A stretch of 64,000 nt of DNA from Oceanithermus profundus DSM 14977 (GTDB lineage: Bacteria; Deinococcota; Deinococci; Deinococcales; Marinithermaceae). The stretch spans positions 868,001 through 932,000 of the forward strand of contig NC_014761.1 of assembly GCF_000183745.1 (NCBI RefSeq), in the 5' to 3' direction. Under the pieces are notes generated by a model. The model worked only from the letters and a program-made list of their open reading frames with translations. It did not search any database and was not told where the DNA came from. The translations under genes were made by a program, and so were the position numbers. Shown one piece after another: positions 46,653 through 64,000 of this stretch (positions are counted from its first letter, which is position 1; the number at the start of each line of letters is the position of its first letter).

Positions 46653-46739
46653 GCCGGGATGGCGGAATTGGTAGACGCGCATGATTCAGGGTCATGTGCC
46701 CGCGAGGGCGTGGGGGTTCAAGTCCCCCTCCCGGCACCA
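46653..46739 (+). tRNA. tRNA-Leu (anticodon CAG)
   Basis: 87 nt with encoded CCA. Acceptor stem GCCGGGA/TCCCGGC, D-arm with GGTAGACGC, anticodon loop TTCAGGG (CAG, reads CTG codons), long variable arm GCCCGCGAGGGC typical of class II tRNAs, and T-loop GGGGGTTCAAGTCCCCC. Confidence 0.96.
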
Positions 46740-55248: not shown

Positions 55249-57954
<2,706 letters not shown>

Positions 57955-58284: not shown

Positions 58285-58740
58285 CTACTCCAGGACGCCC
58301 CCGGTCTCCCCCCGGGCTCCGCGGCCGCCCAGCACCCGGGTATGCAGGCGGCGGCCGCTGTCGGCGAGCTGCGCGTCCGCGAGCGCGCGGTCGAGCTCGG
58401 GGCGGTCGCCGGGCTCGGCCAGGAGGGCCACCTCGTAGGCGTTCGCGTCGTAGGCCGACTTGATCAGCGCCCGCAGGAGGCCGGCGTAGACCTCGGCGCT
58501 TTCGGCGGCGATGCGGGTGACCAGCACGGTGGCGCGGTCGCCCTGCCAGACCGCCTGGGCGAGCACGAAGCCCAGGAGGCGTTCCCCATCGACGGCCGCG
58601 AAGCTGTGCCCGCTGCGCGCGTAGTAGCGCAGCGCCGCAGGGGCGGTTCGGTAGAAGGCCTCGGGGCGGCCCGGGAAGATGCGGCGCTCCAGCGCCTGCA
58701 GCTCGGCGAAGTCGGGTTCTTCGAGGAAGCGGAAGTGCAT
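58285..58740 (-). CDS. DUF1999 protein (GNAT-like fold)
   Basis: 151 residues matching the Thermus DUF1999 group, which has an acetyltransferase-like fold. Segments: FRFLEEPDFAELQALERRIF, RYYARSGHSFAAVDGE, RLLGFVLAQAVWQG and the helix LLRALIKSAYDANAYEVAL. No classical acetyl-CoA loop is evident. ATG 6 nt after TAGGCT, which overlaps the upstream stop codon. Confidence 0.75.
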   Translation of the reverse strand: MHFRFLEEPDFAELQALERRIFPGRPEAFYRTAPAALRYYARSGHSFAAVDGERLLGFVLAQAVWQGDRATVLVTRIAAESAEVYAGLLRALIKSAYDANAYEVALLAEPGDRPELDRALADAQLADSGRRLHTRVLGGRGARGETGGVLE

Positions 58741-58744
58741 GCCC

Positions 58745-60205
58745 CTAGCCTACCGCCTCTGGCCTTCGCCGCGGTGCCTGCAGAACCAGCAGCAGCGCCG
58801 CCAGCAGCGCCAGCCAGGCGGCGACGGGGCGCCGCCGGTCGACCGGGGCCAGCCGGTCCCCCGAGGGACGCGGCAGCCGGGTCTCCGCGTAGTCGAGGAG
58901 GTTGACGGCGAAACCGTCCCGGATCCCCGGTTCCAGGACGCCGTTCCACCCCAGGGGTCGGTAGGAGGCGCCGACGGGCTCGAGCCAGTTGTACAGCAGC
59001 ACGACGAAGGCGGGCAGGTCGCGCAACGCCTCGGGGCGCGGAAGGTAGAGCTCGCCGCCGCGGGCGTAGACCACCCCCAGCCCGTCGGAGCGCGTGGCCA
59101 GGATGCGCCAGCCGCCGCCCGGAGGCGGCGGGGGTGCGGGCAGGTGGTAGCCCACCAGCTCGACCCCGCGCGTGAAGGGGTGCGTGGGGTCGACGTCGTA
59201 GACGACGTCGGGCGCGGCCGCATCGGCGGAGGCCAGGTAGAGGGTGGGCCGTTGCGCGGGGTTTTCCGGGGGCGGCCCCGGCCGCACCTCGGCCTCGGCG
59301 TCGGCGACGCCGGCCCGCCGTGCGCCCAGGGCGGCCAGTGCGCGCGCCACGCTGGGCGCATCGACCTGCAGGCGGACCCGGGGAGGGCGCTCGAGCAGGT
59401 AGGCCTTCTGGTCCAGCCCCATCGCGTCGTCGGGGCGCAGCACGGCGCTTCGTCGCGGCTCCGTGGTCTCGAGGTCGAGGGCCGCGAACCGCCCCGGCGG
59501 CAGGTGCAGCTCCCAGCTGCGCCCGGAGCTGCTGAGGCGGCCGTTCCAGGTGCCGGGTCCGGCGTTGTAGACCGCGGCGAAGCGCGCCCCCAGCGCGGTC
59601 AGGCCCGCGTTGGGCTCGTTTGCGGCCACGTCCAGGAAGGCGGCGCGCAGCTCCGCGGGGGGCGGCGTGTCGCCGATCACCAGCACCGCGGCGCCCGGCA
59701 GCAGGCCGCGCCCCAGCGCCACCGCCCGCCCCAGGTCGGCCCCGGCGTCGCCCGCGCGCAGCGTCTCCAGCGCAGCCAGCAGCCCGTCCCCGCGGGCGGG
59801 ACCGAAGCCTTGCGGCTGCCGTCCGGCGCGCACCAGCACCGCCTTGGATGCGCCCTCGAGCCAGACGGCGGCGCGCTGGCGGGCGCGGTCGAAACGCGTA
59901 CGCTCGTCCACACCGGTGGCGGTCATCGAAGCGCTGGCGTCGAGGACGACGACGAGCCGTTCCGGTTTTCCCGTACGCCACGTCGGCGCGGCCAGGGCGA
60001 GCAGCATCGCCGCTCCCGCCAGGAGCAGCAACACGAGCCGCAGGTCCAGCCGGCGCCGCGCCCGCCCCTGCGCCGATGCGCGCTGCAGCAGCCAGACCCC
60101 CGCCGCCGGAACCACGAAGGGCCGGCGGCGGGCGTAGGTCCAGTAGATCCAGCCCAGGACCAGGGGCAGGAGGATCAGCAGGTAGGGGTGGCCGAAGCCT
60201 ACCAA
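58745..60205 (-). CDS. BatA-like membrane protein with VWA domain
   Basis: 486 residues from a TTG start with GGAGGTGG. It overlaps the DUF3352-like stop by 7 nt. N-terminal helices (YLLILLPLVLGWIYWTYAR and LVLLLLAGAAMLLALAAP) precede a VWA domain with the MIDAS motif DASAS near residue 90. A large periplasmic part follows, and a C-terminal helix (AAWLALLAALLLVLQ) anchors the end. Resembles the BatA/Aer-type family, but no MoxR ATPase, DUF58 or BatB gene is adjacent. Confidence 0.8.
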   Translation of the reverse strand: MVGFGHPYLLILLPLVLGWIYWTYARRRPFVVPAAGVWLLQRASAQGRARRRLDLRLVLLLLAGAAMLLALAAPTWRTGKPERLVVVLDASASMTATGVDERTRFDRARQRAAVWLEGASKAVLVRAGRQPQGFGPARGDGLLAALETLRAGDAGADLGRAVALGRGLLPGAAVLVIGDTPPPAELRAAFLDVAANEPNAGLTALGARFAAVYNAGPGTWNGRLSSSGRSWELHLPPGRFAALDLETTEPRRSAVLRPDDAMGLDQKAYLLERPPRVRLQVDAPSVARALAALGARRAGVADAEAEVRPGPPPENPAQRPTLYLASADAAAPDVVYDVDPTHPFTRGVELVGYHLPAPPPPPGGGWRILATRSDGLGVVYARGGELYLPRPEALRDLPAFVVLLYNWLEPVGASYRPLGWNGVLEPGIRDGFAVNLLDYAETRLPRPSGDRLAPVDRRRPVAAWLALLAALLLVLQAPRRRPEAVG

Positions 60206-61716
60206 GCCACCTCCGTGAAGCCGAACCCGACCAGGTCGTTGTCCTGCACCTGCTGGTAGCTGATGCTCGAGCCGATCCGCTCCGCCAGGAAGTTGAGGAA
60301 CTGCGCGTACTTGTCCGTGAGCTCGAAGACCAGCGCCTGAGCTTCGGGGTCGTCGATCGTCTGCATCATCATCATCGGCAGCATCTGCGCCATCTGCTCG
60401 AGCGACCGGCGGTTGTTGGTGTAGCTCACGCCGTGGAAGTCGTCGGGCAGGTAGGTTTCGGCGAGCTGGCGGTAAGCGGCGTCGTCGGCGATCCGATCCG
60501 GGCTTTCGAGCAGGCGCGCGGCGCGTTCGGAGGTGGCCAGGTAGAGGCGGTCCTCGCCGGTGACCAGGTAGAGCGTTCCCAACATGCCCACGCCGATCTT
60601 CTTGGCCGGCATCCCCGCGATCTCCAGGGCCTCGACCGTGAAGCCGCCGGTGCCCTCGGGCGTCGAGAAGCCCGCGAGCATCTGAATCCAGCTCAGGAGC
60701 GTCACCTCGGCGGTGAGGGTGTCCCTGGTTTCGAGGACGATCAGCAGGTTCCCCATCGGGTTCTGCAGCATTTCCTGAGGATCGGTGCTTCCGGCGTCGA
60801 CCATGGCGAGGTGGTTGCCGAAGGCGGAGAAGTCGAGCTGAAGGTCCTGACCGAACTGCTGAGCGTAGCCGGTGAGGTAGTCGCCCAGCGCCGCCAGGTC
60901 GAGCACGAAGCTGCTGGCCCCGACCCCGCGCGGCAGCTCGTCGAGCGCCCAGGCCGGGTCGGCGGGCATCAGAATGCGGGCCAGTTCCGCGTCCTGGTCG
61001 GGGTTGAGGGGAAGCCGCGAGCGCGTGAAGACCCCGCCGTCCTGGATCTCCAGGGACCAGGAGAAGCCGCCGAAGGTCTTGAGGGTGCGGATCACCTGCG
61101 GCGGCAGACCCAGATCCGGGGTTTCGAGCAAGGGCCAGAGCGGTTCGGCGTCGACCCAGAAGGCGAGGTCGCCCTCCACCGGGAGCTTCAGGCCGCGCTC
61201 ACCGGCCAGGAAGCGCTCCACCGCGCCTTCGGAGCCGATCAGGATCAGCTCGCCGTTGTGGCCCGCATAGACCGCGGTGCCGCCTTCTTCGGTGCGGTCC
61301 AGCTTCCAGCCGTTTCGGGTTTCGGGGTTTTCCATCGACTTGTTGAGCAGCGCGATCAGGGTGTCCACCCGGTTGGCCGAGGGGCGCGCCAGGGCGAAGA
61401 AGTCGCCGCTGGGGTAGACGACGAGGAGGCCCTCGCGACCCACCAGGTCGACGTTGAGGATCTCGCTGAGGAGCTGCAGGTCGTCGGCGTTCACCTCGCC
61501 GTCCTGGGCGGCCAGGTCCTTGATCGAATCGAAGAAGCCGAGGCGGTTCCACTCGGTTTGAAAGTCGATGAAGAACGCCTTCTTGATGGCGAGGTTGCGG
61601 GTATAGAAGCCGGCCGTCGCGCCGGGGGGCGTGAGCGCCGGCAGGCTCTGCGCGGTCGCGGGCAGCAGGGCGAAGACGAGCGCCAATAGGAAAAGGTAGG
61701 GTTTCTTATACAGCAT
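60199..61716 (-). CDS. DUF3352-like secreted protein, unknown function
   Basis: 505 residues with a signal peptide (MLYKKPYLFLLALVFALLPA). Internal pattern of repeated alpha/beta modules: LVVYPSGDFFALARPSANRV, VDTLIALLNKS and GKE-like strands, similar to DUF3352 proteins. Asp/Leu-rich, no catalytic motif seen. ATG 6 nt after TAACCT. Coupled to the BatA-like gene, so both may serve the cell envelope. Confidence 0.7.
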   Translation of the reverse strand: MLYKKPYLFLLALVFALLPATAQSLPALTPPGATAGFYTRNLAIKKAFFIDFQTEWNRLGFFDSIKDLAAQDGEVNADDLQLLSEILNVDLVGREGLLVVYPSGDFFALARPSANRVDTLIALLNKSMENPETRNGWKLDRTEEGGTAVYAGHNGELILIGSEGAVERFLAGERGLKLPVEGDLAFWVDAEPLWPLLETPDLGLPPQVIRTLKTFGGFSWSLEIQDGGVFTRSRLPLNPDQDAELARILMPADPAWALDELPRGVGASSFVLDLAALGDYLTGYAQQFGQDLQLDFSAFGNHLAMVDAGSTDPQEMLQNPMGNLLIVLETRDTLTAEVTLLSWIQMLAGFSTPEGTGGFTVEALEIAGMPAKKIGVGMLGTLYLVTGEDRLYLATSERAARLLESPDRIADDAAYRQLAETYLPDDFHGVSYTNNRRSLEQMAQMLPMMMMQTIDDPEAQALVFELTDKYAQFLNFLAERIGSSISYQQVQDNDLVGFGFTEVAW

Positions 61717-61772: not shown

Positions 61773-62303
61773 TCAAAGGTAGACGGGCACGAGGCGCGCG
61801 TCCCCGCGGTTCCAGCGGGCGAGCCCCAGCCGGGCGAGCGCGCGCCCCGAGGGCGGCGCGTTCCAGAGCAGGCAGGCGTCGCCTCGGGGCAGTGCCCCGG
61901 CCGCGAGCCTGGCCGGCGGTTCCTGCTCCGCGGGAAGGTCCTCGACGCGGTACGCGGCGGTGTAAACCTGGCGGTTGCGGGCTTCGAAGGCCGCTCGCAC
62001 CCGGCCGCGCGCGCGCGCCGCGGCGGCGGCGAGGGAGGACGCGCCCACGACCGGCACGTCCAGACCGCGCGCCAGGCCCATCGCCGTCGCGACGGCGACG
62101 CGGATGCCGGTGTAGGAACCCGGCCCCTCGCCGACCACGATCAGGTCGAGCCGCGCCGGCTCGAGCCCGATCCCGGAGAGGAACGCCTCCAGGTCGGCGA
62201 TCAGCGTCTCGGCGTGGCGGCGGCCGCGCCGCAGCGTGCGTTCGGCGTCGAGGGTGCCGAGGACCAGGTAAGGGGTGGCGGTGTCGATGGCCAGGACGTT
62301 CAC
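61773..62303 (-). CDS. tsaB: tRNA threonylcarbamoyladenosine biosynthesis protein TsaB
   Basis: 176-residue ASKHA-fold partner of TsaD in making t6A37 on ANN-reading tRNAs. Signature: NVLAIDTATPYLVLGTLD, RRHAETLIADLEAFL, and GEGPGSYTGIRVAVATAMGL near residue 65. Shorter than E. coli TsaB (about 230) because the C-terminal part is reduced, as in thermophiles. GTG start 8 nt after TAAACT. Divergent from the ligase gene. Confidence 0.93.
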   Translation of the reverse strand: MNVLAIDTATPYLVLGTLDAERTLRRGRRHAETLIADLEAFLSGIGLEPARLDLIVVGEGPGSYTGIRVAVATAMGLARGLDVPVVGASSLAAAAARARGRVRAAFEARNRQVYTAAYRVEDLPAEQEPPARLAAGALPRGDACLLWNAPPSGRALARLGLARWNRGDARLVPVYL

Positions 62304-62311
62304 AGGACTTC

Positions 62312-62335
62312 AGTTTAGTACCCCCGCGCTAGACT
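62312..62335. promoter_or_regulatory. Divergent promoters of tsaB and the DNA ligase
   Basis: Minus: TAAACT (62312-62317) 8 nt before the tsaB GTG. Plus: TAGACT (62330-62335), 19 nt before the ligase ATG, leaving room for AGGAGG at 62343-62348. Confidence 0.55.
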
Positions 62336-62354
62336 GAGGGTAAGGAGGCGCAAG

Positions 62355-64000
62355 ATGACCTTCCAGCGGTTCGTCGCGACGCTGCTCGAGGTGGAACGGG
62401 CGAGCTCGCGGATCGCCATGGTGAAGATGCTGGCCGAAGCCTTCCGCGAGCTTCCGCCCGAGGAGGTGCCGCTTGCGGTGCTGCTCCTTCAAGGTCGGGT
62501 GGCCCCCGAATTCGAGGGGCTCGAGTTCGGCGTGGCTGAGAAGGAGGCGGCCAAGGCGTTGGCGCTGGCGCTGGGGCGGGACGAAGCGGAGACCGTCCAG
62601 GCCGTCAAGGAGAAGGGCGACATCGGCGCCTATGCGCTCGAGGTGCTGCCCCGCAGGGCCGGAGGTTTGTCCTTGCGGCACGTCTACGGCGAGCTGCGCG
62701 CCATCGCCGAGGACGCCGGTCCCGGTTCCCAGGCGCGCAAGCGCGAGCGCCTGTCGCGCCTCGTCGCCGAGGCCAGCCCCGAGGAGGCGGCGGTGATCCT
62801 GCGCACCGTGACCGGGCGGCTGCGCCTGGGGGTGGGCGACGCCACGGTGCTGGAGGCCCTGGCGCTGGCCTTCCTGGGCGACCGCGCCAAGAAGCCGCTC
62901 TTGGAGCGGGCCTACAACCTGACCTCCGACCTGGCCTACGTGGCGCGGCTGGCCCTGGAGGGTGAAGAGGCATTGCGGCAGGTGAAGCTCGAGGTGGGCA
63001 AGCCGGTGCGGATGATGCTGGCCGAACGGCTGCCGGGCCCCGAGCAGATCATGGAGAAGCTGGGCCCCCACTTCGCCGAGCACAAGTACGACGGCGAGCG
63101 GGTGCAGGTGCACTTCGACGGCGAGCGCTTCTGGGTCTACTCGCGCCGGCTCGAGAACATTACCCACCAGTACCCCGACCTGCTGGAGGCGCTGCGCGAG
63201 GTGCAGCACGGACCCTTCATCCTCGAGGCCGAGGCGGTGGTCACCGACCCGGTGACCGGCGAGATGCGCCCATTCCAGAACGTGCTCAACCGCAAGGTTA
63301 AGCACCTGACGCCCGAGCTTCTGGAGAAGTACCCCATCAAGGGCTTCGTCTTCGAGCTGCTCTACGCGGACGGCGAGGTCTTGATCGAGCGCCCCTACAG
63401 CGAACGGCGCGAGCGGCTCGAGCGCTGGTTCCGCCCCCACGAGCGGCTCGAGCTTTCCACCAAGCGCTTCGTCGAGACGACCGAGGAGCTGGTCCAGTTC
63501 TTCGACGCCTCCATCGAGGCCGGTTGCGAGGGGCTGGTCTGCAAGAAGCCCGACGGCGACTACGAAGCCGGCAAGCGCGGCTTCAAGTGGGTCAAGTACA
63601 AGCGCGGCATCGCCGGCAAGCTCTCCGACACCCTCGACCTGGTCATCGTCGGCGCCTGGTTGGGGCGGGGGCGGCGCGCCGGCACCTACGGCTCGCTGCT
63701 GGCCGCGGCCTACAACCCCGATGAAGACCGCTTCGAGACCCTCACCAAGGTGGGTTCGGGGTTCAGCGACGAGGACCTGAACGAGGTGCTGCCCCGGCGG
63801 CTCGACCCCTACCGCCGCGGGGAGCGGCACCCGCGCGTCTGGTCGCTGCTCGAGCCCGACGTCTGGTTCGAGCCCGTCCAGGTCATCGAGGTCGAGGCCC
63901 AGGAGATCACGCTCAGCCCCAACCACACCTGCGCCTTCGGTGCGGTCCAGGAAGGCCGCGGCCTGGCCCTGCGGTTCCCCCGCTTCGTCCGTTACCGCGA
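62355..64000 (+). CDS. Archaeal-type ATP-dependent DNA ligase, C-terminus beyond window
   Basis: 548 residues visible of about 560-590. The three-domain archaeal/eukaryotic LigI layout is present: an N-terminal DNA-binding helical domain (about 1-205), the adenylation domain with Lys244 in HKYDGERVQVHF, ESR-like VYSRRLENIT, LEAEAVV, FELLYADG, CEGLVCKKPDGDYEAG and WVKYKRG, then the OB domain ending RFPRFVRYR. Bacteria replicate with NAD-dependent LigA, so this is an extra ligase and probably acquired from archaea. The compact LigD-associated type lacks the N-terminal domain. AGGAGG 6 nt before the ATG. Confidence 0.93.
   Translation, partial: MTFQRFVATLLEVERASSRIAMVKMLAEAFRELPPEEVPLAVLLLQGRVAPEFEGLEFGVAEKEAAKALALALGRDEAETVQAVKEKGDIGAYALEVLPRRAGGLSLRHVYGELRAIAEDAGPGSQARKRERLSRLVAEASPEEAAVILRTVTGRLRLGVGDATVLEALALAFLGDRAKKPLLERAYNLTSDLAYVARLALEGEEALRQVKLEVGKPVRMMLAERLPGPEQIMEKLGPHFAEHKYDGERVQVHFDGERFWVYSRRLENITHQYPDLLEALREVQHGPFILEAEAVVTDPVTGEMRPFQNVLNRKVKHLTPELLEKYPIKGFVFELLYADGEVLIERPYSERRERLERWFRPHERLELSTKRFVETTEELVQFFDASIEAGCEGLVCKKPDGDYEAGKRGFKWVKYKRGIAGKLSDTLDLVIVGAWLGRGRRAGTYGSLLAAAYNPDEDRFETLTKVGSGFSDEDLNEVLPRRLDPYRRGERHPRVWSLLEPDVWFEPVQVIEVEAQEITLSPNHTCAFGAVQEGRGLALRFPRFVRYR

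Follow-up and report, generated by a model that had tools for sequence, protein, structure and literature searches.

An archaeal-type ATP-dependent DNA ligase in Oceanithermus profundus and probable displacement of LigA in an uncultured sister genus

The NAD-dependent DNA ligase LigA is regarded as essential and present in all bacteria, and for that reason it has been put forward as a target for antibacterials. The chromosome of Oceanithermus profundus also carries a gene whose product resembles the ATP-dependent ligases of archaea, which raises the questions of what type of enzyme it encodes, how it reached this genome, and what it does alongside LigA. The gene is at the right end of the window, the 64,000-nucleotide stretch of DNA that was analysed (bases 868001-932000 of a 2,303,940-bp contig; the genome is 2,439,291 bp in two contigs). 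The published genome of O. profundus 506T consists of a chromosome and a 135,351-bp plasmid, and the paper describing it does not mention a ligase (PMC3111992). The reading frame starts with an ATG at 62355, is open up to the window edge, and extends for a further 70 nt beyond it. The gene and its parts are as follows.

62330..62335, + strand: weak candidate for a ligase -10 element, TAGACT (identified by eye)
62342..62348, + strand: Shine-Dalgarno-like AAGGAGG, 6 nt ahead of the ligase ATG
62355..64000, + strand: LigI-type ATP-dependent DNA ligase, 571 aa, with its stop at window-equivalent position 64070 (L001 1501-3216)
62361..62864, + strand: N-terminal DNA-binding domain PF04675 (DNA_ligase_A_N), residues 3-170 (Pfam)
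62646..62669, + strand: shortened loop LPRRAGGL at the position of the archaeal PIP motif (alignment)
63015..63602, + strand: adenylation (nucleotidyltransferase) domain PF01068 (DNA_ligase_A_M), residues 221-416 (Pfam)
63084..63101, + strand: motif I KYDGER, with Lys244 as predicted AMP acceptor (alignment)
63675..63998, + strand: OB-fold domain PF04679 (DNA_ligase_A_C), residues 441-548 (Pfam)

The predicted protein matches TIGR00574 with 428.9 bits (cutoff 217.8) and contains the three Pfam ligase domains together. The KxDG motif and the remaining nucleotidyltransferase motifs are present, and K244, D246, G247 and R249 are invariant in an alignment of 21 sequences. Its AlphaFold model (mean pLDDT 89.9) has as its top PDB match by fold the Saccharolobus solfataricus ligase 2hiv (E 2.3e-59, 42% identity), and S. 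solfataricus DNA ligase 1 (PDB 2hiv, 7rpx) is also the best PDB match by sequence (436 bits); the two are alike in three-domain architecture, motifs and fold, and differ in that the O. profundus enzyme has a bacterial host and is missing the PIP loop (see below). A C-terminal 'DDKSPEEATT' tail is held in common with other archaeal-type ligases, and in the ligase tree the Thermaceae sequences are on the archaeal-type side, split from bacterial LigB by a 100/100 branch. By these measures the protein is an archaeal/eukaryotic LigI-type ATP-dependent DNA ligase (TIGR00574 superfamily), and the first-pass annotation was right in giving it the full three-domain LigI architecture, in placing the KYDGER lysine at residue 244, and in calling it archaeal-type rather than one of the short bacterial LigC/LigD enzymes. 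Catalysis is predicted to follow the standard three steps: Lys244 is adenylated at the expense of ATP, the AMP passes to the nick's 5'-phosphate, and the nick is sealed while the three domains enclose the DNA. Low dN/dS values in close pairs (0.06-0.18) indicate purifying selection, which maintains the gene in Oceanithermus as well as in the sister genus described below.

Other ligase classes fit poorly. Bacterial LigB (NF002868 / PRK03180 type) is ATP-dependent and has the same three Pfam domains, but it is ruled out by its position in the tree and by a score of 273 bits where 641 would be needed; the cisplatin-response ligase (TIGR04120) is ruled out at 164 versus 400 bits. Weak cross-matches to models of non-homologous end-joining ligases do occur, and could be taken to reflect a LigC/LigD-like function. 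However, the match to TIGR02779 (126, cutoff 228) is far below threshold, the polymerase and phosphoesterase domains are absent, the O. profundus genome is without Ku, and the conserved neighbourhood is free of repair genes; we regard an end-joining role as very improbable, and membership of the LigC/LigD class as ruled out.

One departure from the archaeal enzymes is in the loop that contacts the sliding clamp. In Pyrococcus furiosus Lig the PIP motif is 103-QKSFF-107, located in a loop of the DNA-binding domain (PMC6212441), and the archaeal ligases in our alignment have QKSFF, KQMTLF or QTTFL as PIP motifs. All archaeal-type sequences examined from Thermaceae and from the HR32 phylum have a shortened loop without the motif, and with the deletion in nine of nine Thermaceae sequences these proteins are not assigned to the PCNA-coupled subgroup of archaeal replicative ligases. 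The deletion is as expected for a host presumed to be without PCNA, and the Thermaceae ligase would act without the PCNA contact used by its archaeal relatives. A pattern scan of the Thermaceae ligases gave no convincing substitute in the form of a bacterial clamp-binding motif. One candidate, QEITL at residue 516, was rejected because it sits in a conserved OB-domain strand common to archaeal-type ligases.

We searched a set of 111 Deinococcota genomes, and full-length copies of the ligase are confined to Oceanithermus and an uncultured sister genus, g3, both in one family; the remaining matches are short or LigD-like. The gene is present in all six Oceanithermus genomes, although in one merely as a 146-residue fragment, and in six of the seven g3 genomes, all of which are MAGs (64-92% complete), the genus being known from MAGs alone. 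It was not found in G009, a complete genome in a single 2,269,167-bp contig, which we take to be a Marinithermus-like genus and the third of the family. To the left of the ligase the three genera share a gene array, which in O. profundus comprises the following.

55249..57954, - strand: aconitase (as read from the sequence), the end of the array common to the three genera
58285..58740, - strand: DUF1999 protein
58745..60205, - strand: BatA-like / vWA protein
60199..61716, - strand: 505-aa protein without a Pfam match
61773..62303, - strand: tsaB (TsaD-family PF00814), divergent to the ligase and marking its insertion site

In both Oceanithermus and g3 the ligase is divergent from tsaB, and in Oceanithermus the DUF58-MoxR genes are directly past it. 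In G009 the array is kept, but DUF58 and MoxR come 21 nt past tsaB and the ligase is missing. The simplest reading is that the common ancestor of Oceanithermus and g3 acquired the gene horizontally, in a single event, and that it was inserted between tsaB and DUF58. A tree of seven rpoB-region proteins joins these two genera with support of 95/97; rpoB alone leaves the three genera unresolved, and a competing grouping that unites Oceanithermus with G009 also survives the AU test (p-AU 0.119). If that grouping is correct, G009 could have lost the ligase gene, and the polarity of gain is to this extent an interpretation. The first-pass annotation had named a long vertical history inside a bacterial ligase clade as a result that would refute it; what it missed is a vertical history across these two genera, together with the loss of LigA in one of them (see below).

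GC3 of the ligase is 0.935, compared with 0.92-0.95 in neighbouring genes, which agrees with the earlier suggestion of an old acquisition with host-like composition. As also described previously, the ligase is divergent to tsaB and has a strong Shine-Dalgarno sequence, the two start codons being separated by 51 bp on opposite strands within a divergent promoter region at 62300-62360. A consensus scan returned no promoter. The proposed contrast with leaderless neighbours fares less well: a -10-like TATA near the tsaB GTG is consistent with a leaderless tsaB, but in g3 (L006-L009, L038) the tsaB/ligase gap is only ~25 bp, a TATA-like -10 almost touches the ligase start codon (by eye), and the ligase itself looks leaderless. 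The contrast is thus not a trait of the gene family. Elsewhere in the window, a tRNA gene at 46653-46736 is the sole Rfam match.

The second question is whether this ligase acts in addition to LigA or in place of it. In O. profundus the NAD-dependent ligA is intact (796 bits; the KIDG motif and every domain are present), and its presence is one of the checks that the first-pass annotation had proposed. LigA is also matched in G009 and in five of the six Oceanithermus genomes, the exception (G013) being an 85%-complete MAG. Its dN/dS in Oceanithermus is 0.15-0.20, and across those pairs the ATP ligase has 0.07-0.14; strong relaxation of LigA is not seen. LigA thus remains under purifying selection, and the ATP ligase does not fully replace it there; in O. 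profundus the two enzymes probably have overlapping roles.

The situation in g3 is different. LigA was found in none of the seven MAGs, whether searched by HMM or with the LigA protein of O. profundus, whereas it is present in 95 of the 104 Deinococcota genomes outside g3; by our own arithmetic, the hypergeometric chance that all seven g3 genomes fall among the 16 that are LigA-less is ~3e-7. Control genes were found in the same MAGs (rpoB 7/7, metX 6/7, and the ABC gene 7/7). The strongest evidence comes from the ligA locus, which in O. profundus and G009 has the order metX, a 166-aa gene, SCO1/SenC, ligA, BMP, ABC; in g3 the order is the same with ligA gone. The closed SCO1-BMP junction is on single contigs in six of the seven MAGs (G016, G017, G018, G019, G020, and G021), and in the seventh (G015) the position coincides with a contig break. 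As judged from these assemblies, ligA was lost at its ancestral site. A search with PF01068 showed the ATP ligase to be the sole such protein in six g3 MAGs; in G017, the 64%-complete assembly, neither LigA nor a PF01068 ATP ligase was found. Beside the ligA locus of G009 there are spurious ORFs with the repeated peptides GPSPRAWGL and SIPTCVGTT (L064 107-3101), probably the conceptual translation of a CRISPR array.

Caution is warranted in that absence from a search is by itself no proof, since nine of the 104 genomes outside g3 are also without a LigA match, including the single-contig G092 (2.9 Mb). Five of these (G003, G081, G088, G091, and G092) are at least 90% complete and gave no LigA by HMM or protein search; among them only G081 has a short ATP ligase match, and no ATP ligase was found in G092 either. 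LigA is present in G089, G090, G093 and G094, genus-mates of G091 and G092, and the five absences may represent missing sequence or further losses. These genomes, the MAG status of g3, and the description of known bacterial ATP ligases as non-essential and additional to LigA (PMC5052709) are all compatible with the enzyme being an auxiliary repair ligase in both genera, with LigA of g3 either missed as a MAG artefact or encoded on an unbinned element. We consider this unlikely, given the recovery of rpoB from all seven MAGs, the junction closed in six independent assemblies, and a product of missing fractions of 5e-6 if the losses are independent.

A two-step replacement accounts for these observations better. 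We think it likely that an active archaeal-type ATP ligase was gained once in the Oceanithermus/g3 ancestor, overlaps with LigA in O. profundus, and is the sole ligase in g3; that g3 is a free-living, LigA-less lineage, its replicative ligase swapped for an archaeal-type ATP ligase without PCNA contact, and that Oceanithermus represents a two-ligase intermediate, we think likely as well. In g3 the ATP ligase would have taken over all ligation, ligA having been deleted, and we infer that this includes joining of Okazaki fragments, as it is the only ligase found there. The earlier proposition that absence of LigA would make this the replicative enzyme applies in g3, where from MAG data it is the only DNA ligase, and not in O. 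profundus, where ligA is present.

The family, which is from hot vents, thus includes genomes with LigA only, with both ligases, and with the ATP ligase only, and presents a ligase swap that occurred in nature and passed through a stage with two ligases, with empty-site evidence both for gain and for loss. According to a 2016 review, ATP ligases in bacteria invariably supplement the NAD enzyme and never replace it (PMC5052709). The g3 data are at odds with that statement, with the proviso that they come from MAGs. A two-ligase organism created by cross-domain transfer has been described in Haloferax volcanii, in which an essential function is common to LigN and the second enzyme (PMC1684257). 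There the direction is opposite, a bacterial NAD ligase having entered an archaeon, and both ligases are retained. A cross-domain swap of a core replication enzyme should be directly testable, including the operation of an archaeal ligase at a bacterial fork without PCNA contact. Our literature searches, in one of which a phrase was swamped by 'ligand', found no report of the Oceanithermus ligase or of LigA-less Thermaceae.

Where the gene came from is less clear. The nine Thermaceae ligases form one clade (100/100) lying among archaeal ligases, although the best sister group in a mixture-model tree is bacterial: a second and separate, well-supported clade composed of the HR32 phylum with Streptosporangiales nested within it, to which the Thermaceae are weakly joined (42/37). 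The members of that clade, including those of Streptosporangiales/Trebonia, are also archaeal-type LigI enzymes in bacteria without a PIP loop (45-52% identity). Acquisition from another bacterium related to these groups, rather than directly from an archaeon, is a plausible reading to which we give somewhat less than an even chance. Outside the family, the closest sequences by identity belong to the HR32 phylum (50-52%), and the PIP loop is absent in both clades, although hosts without PCNA could have lost it independently, and joining the Thermaceae to Thermoplasmatota, TACK/Asgard or Nitrososphaerota is equally allowed (p-AU 0.28-0.38), with no alternative sister rejected. The donor could have been an archaeon or another bacterial lineage with such ligases; with all four alternative sister groups allowed, no direct archaeal donor can be named. 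A phage origin was rejected (best matches 25-26% identical, and partial), as was a plasmid origin (matches of at most 34%), and IMG/VR yielded no relative.

Other bacteria with archaeal-type ligases provide several further observations. Within the HR32 phylum, 16 of 43 genomes have a full-length copy, usually beside a second, LigB-type ligase (L128-L143, L011). LigA was not found in HR32 itself (G111) by HMM or protein query, and the phylum is a possible second case of LigA displacement. In a second member, G160, the 1.36 of ~2.5 Mb that was read gave no match to LigA and none to rpoB. The nesting of the Trebonia and Streptosporangiaceae ligases (L022, L028, L036, and L043) in the HR32-phylum clade suggests bacterium-to-bacterium transfer. 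Three of these four genomes also have LigA, and the Streptosporangiales tested that gave a full-length LigA match (G113, G114, and G116) have retained it, unlike g3. Finally, a ligase on a Patescibacteria MAG contig (L021 5832-7481) groups with Woesearchaeota ligases (97/86), in a genome where LigA-like matches are only weak, and represents either a transfer or misbinning.
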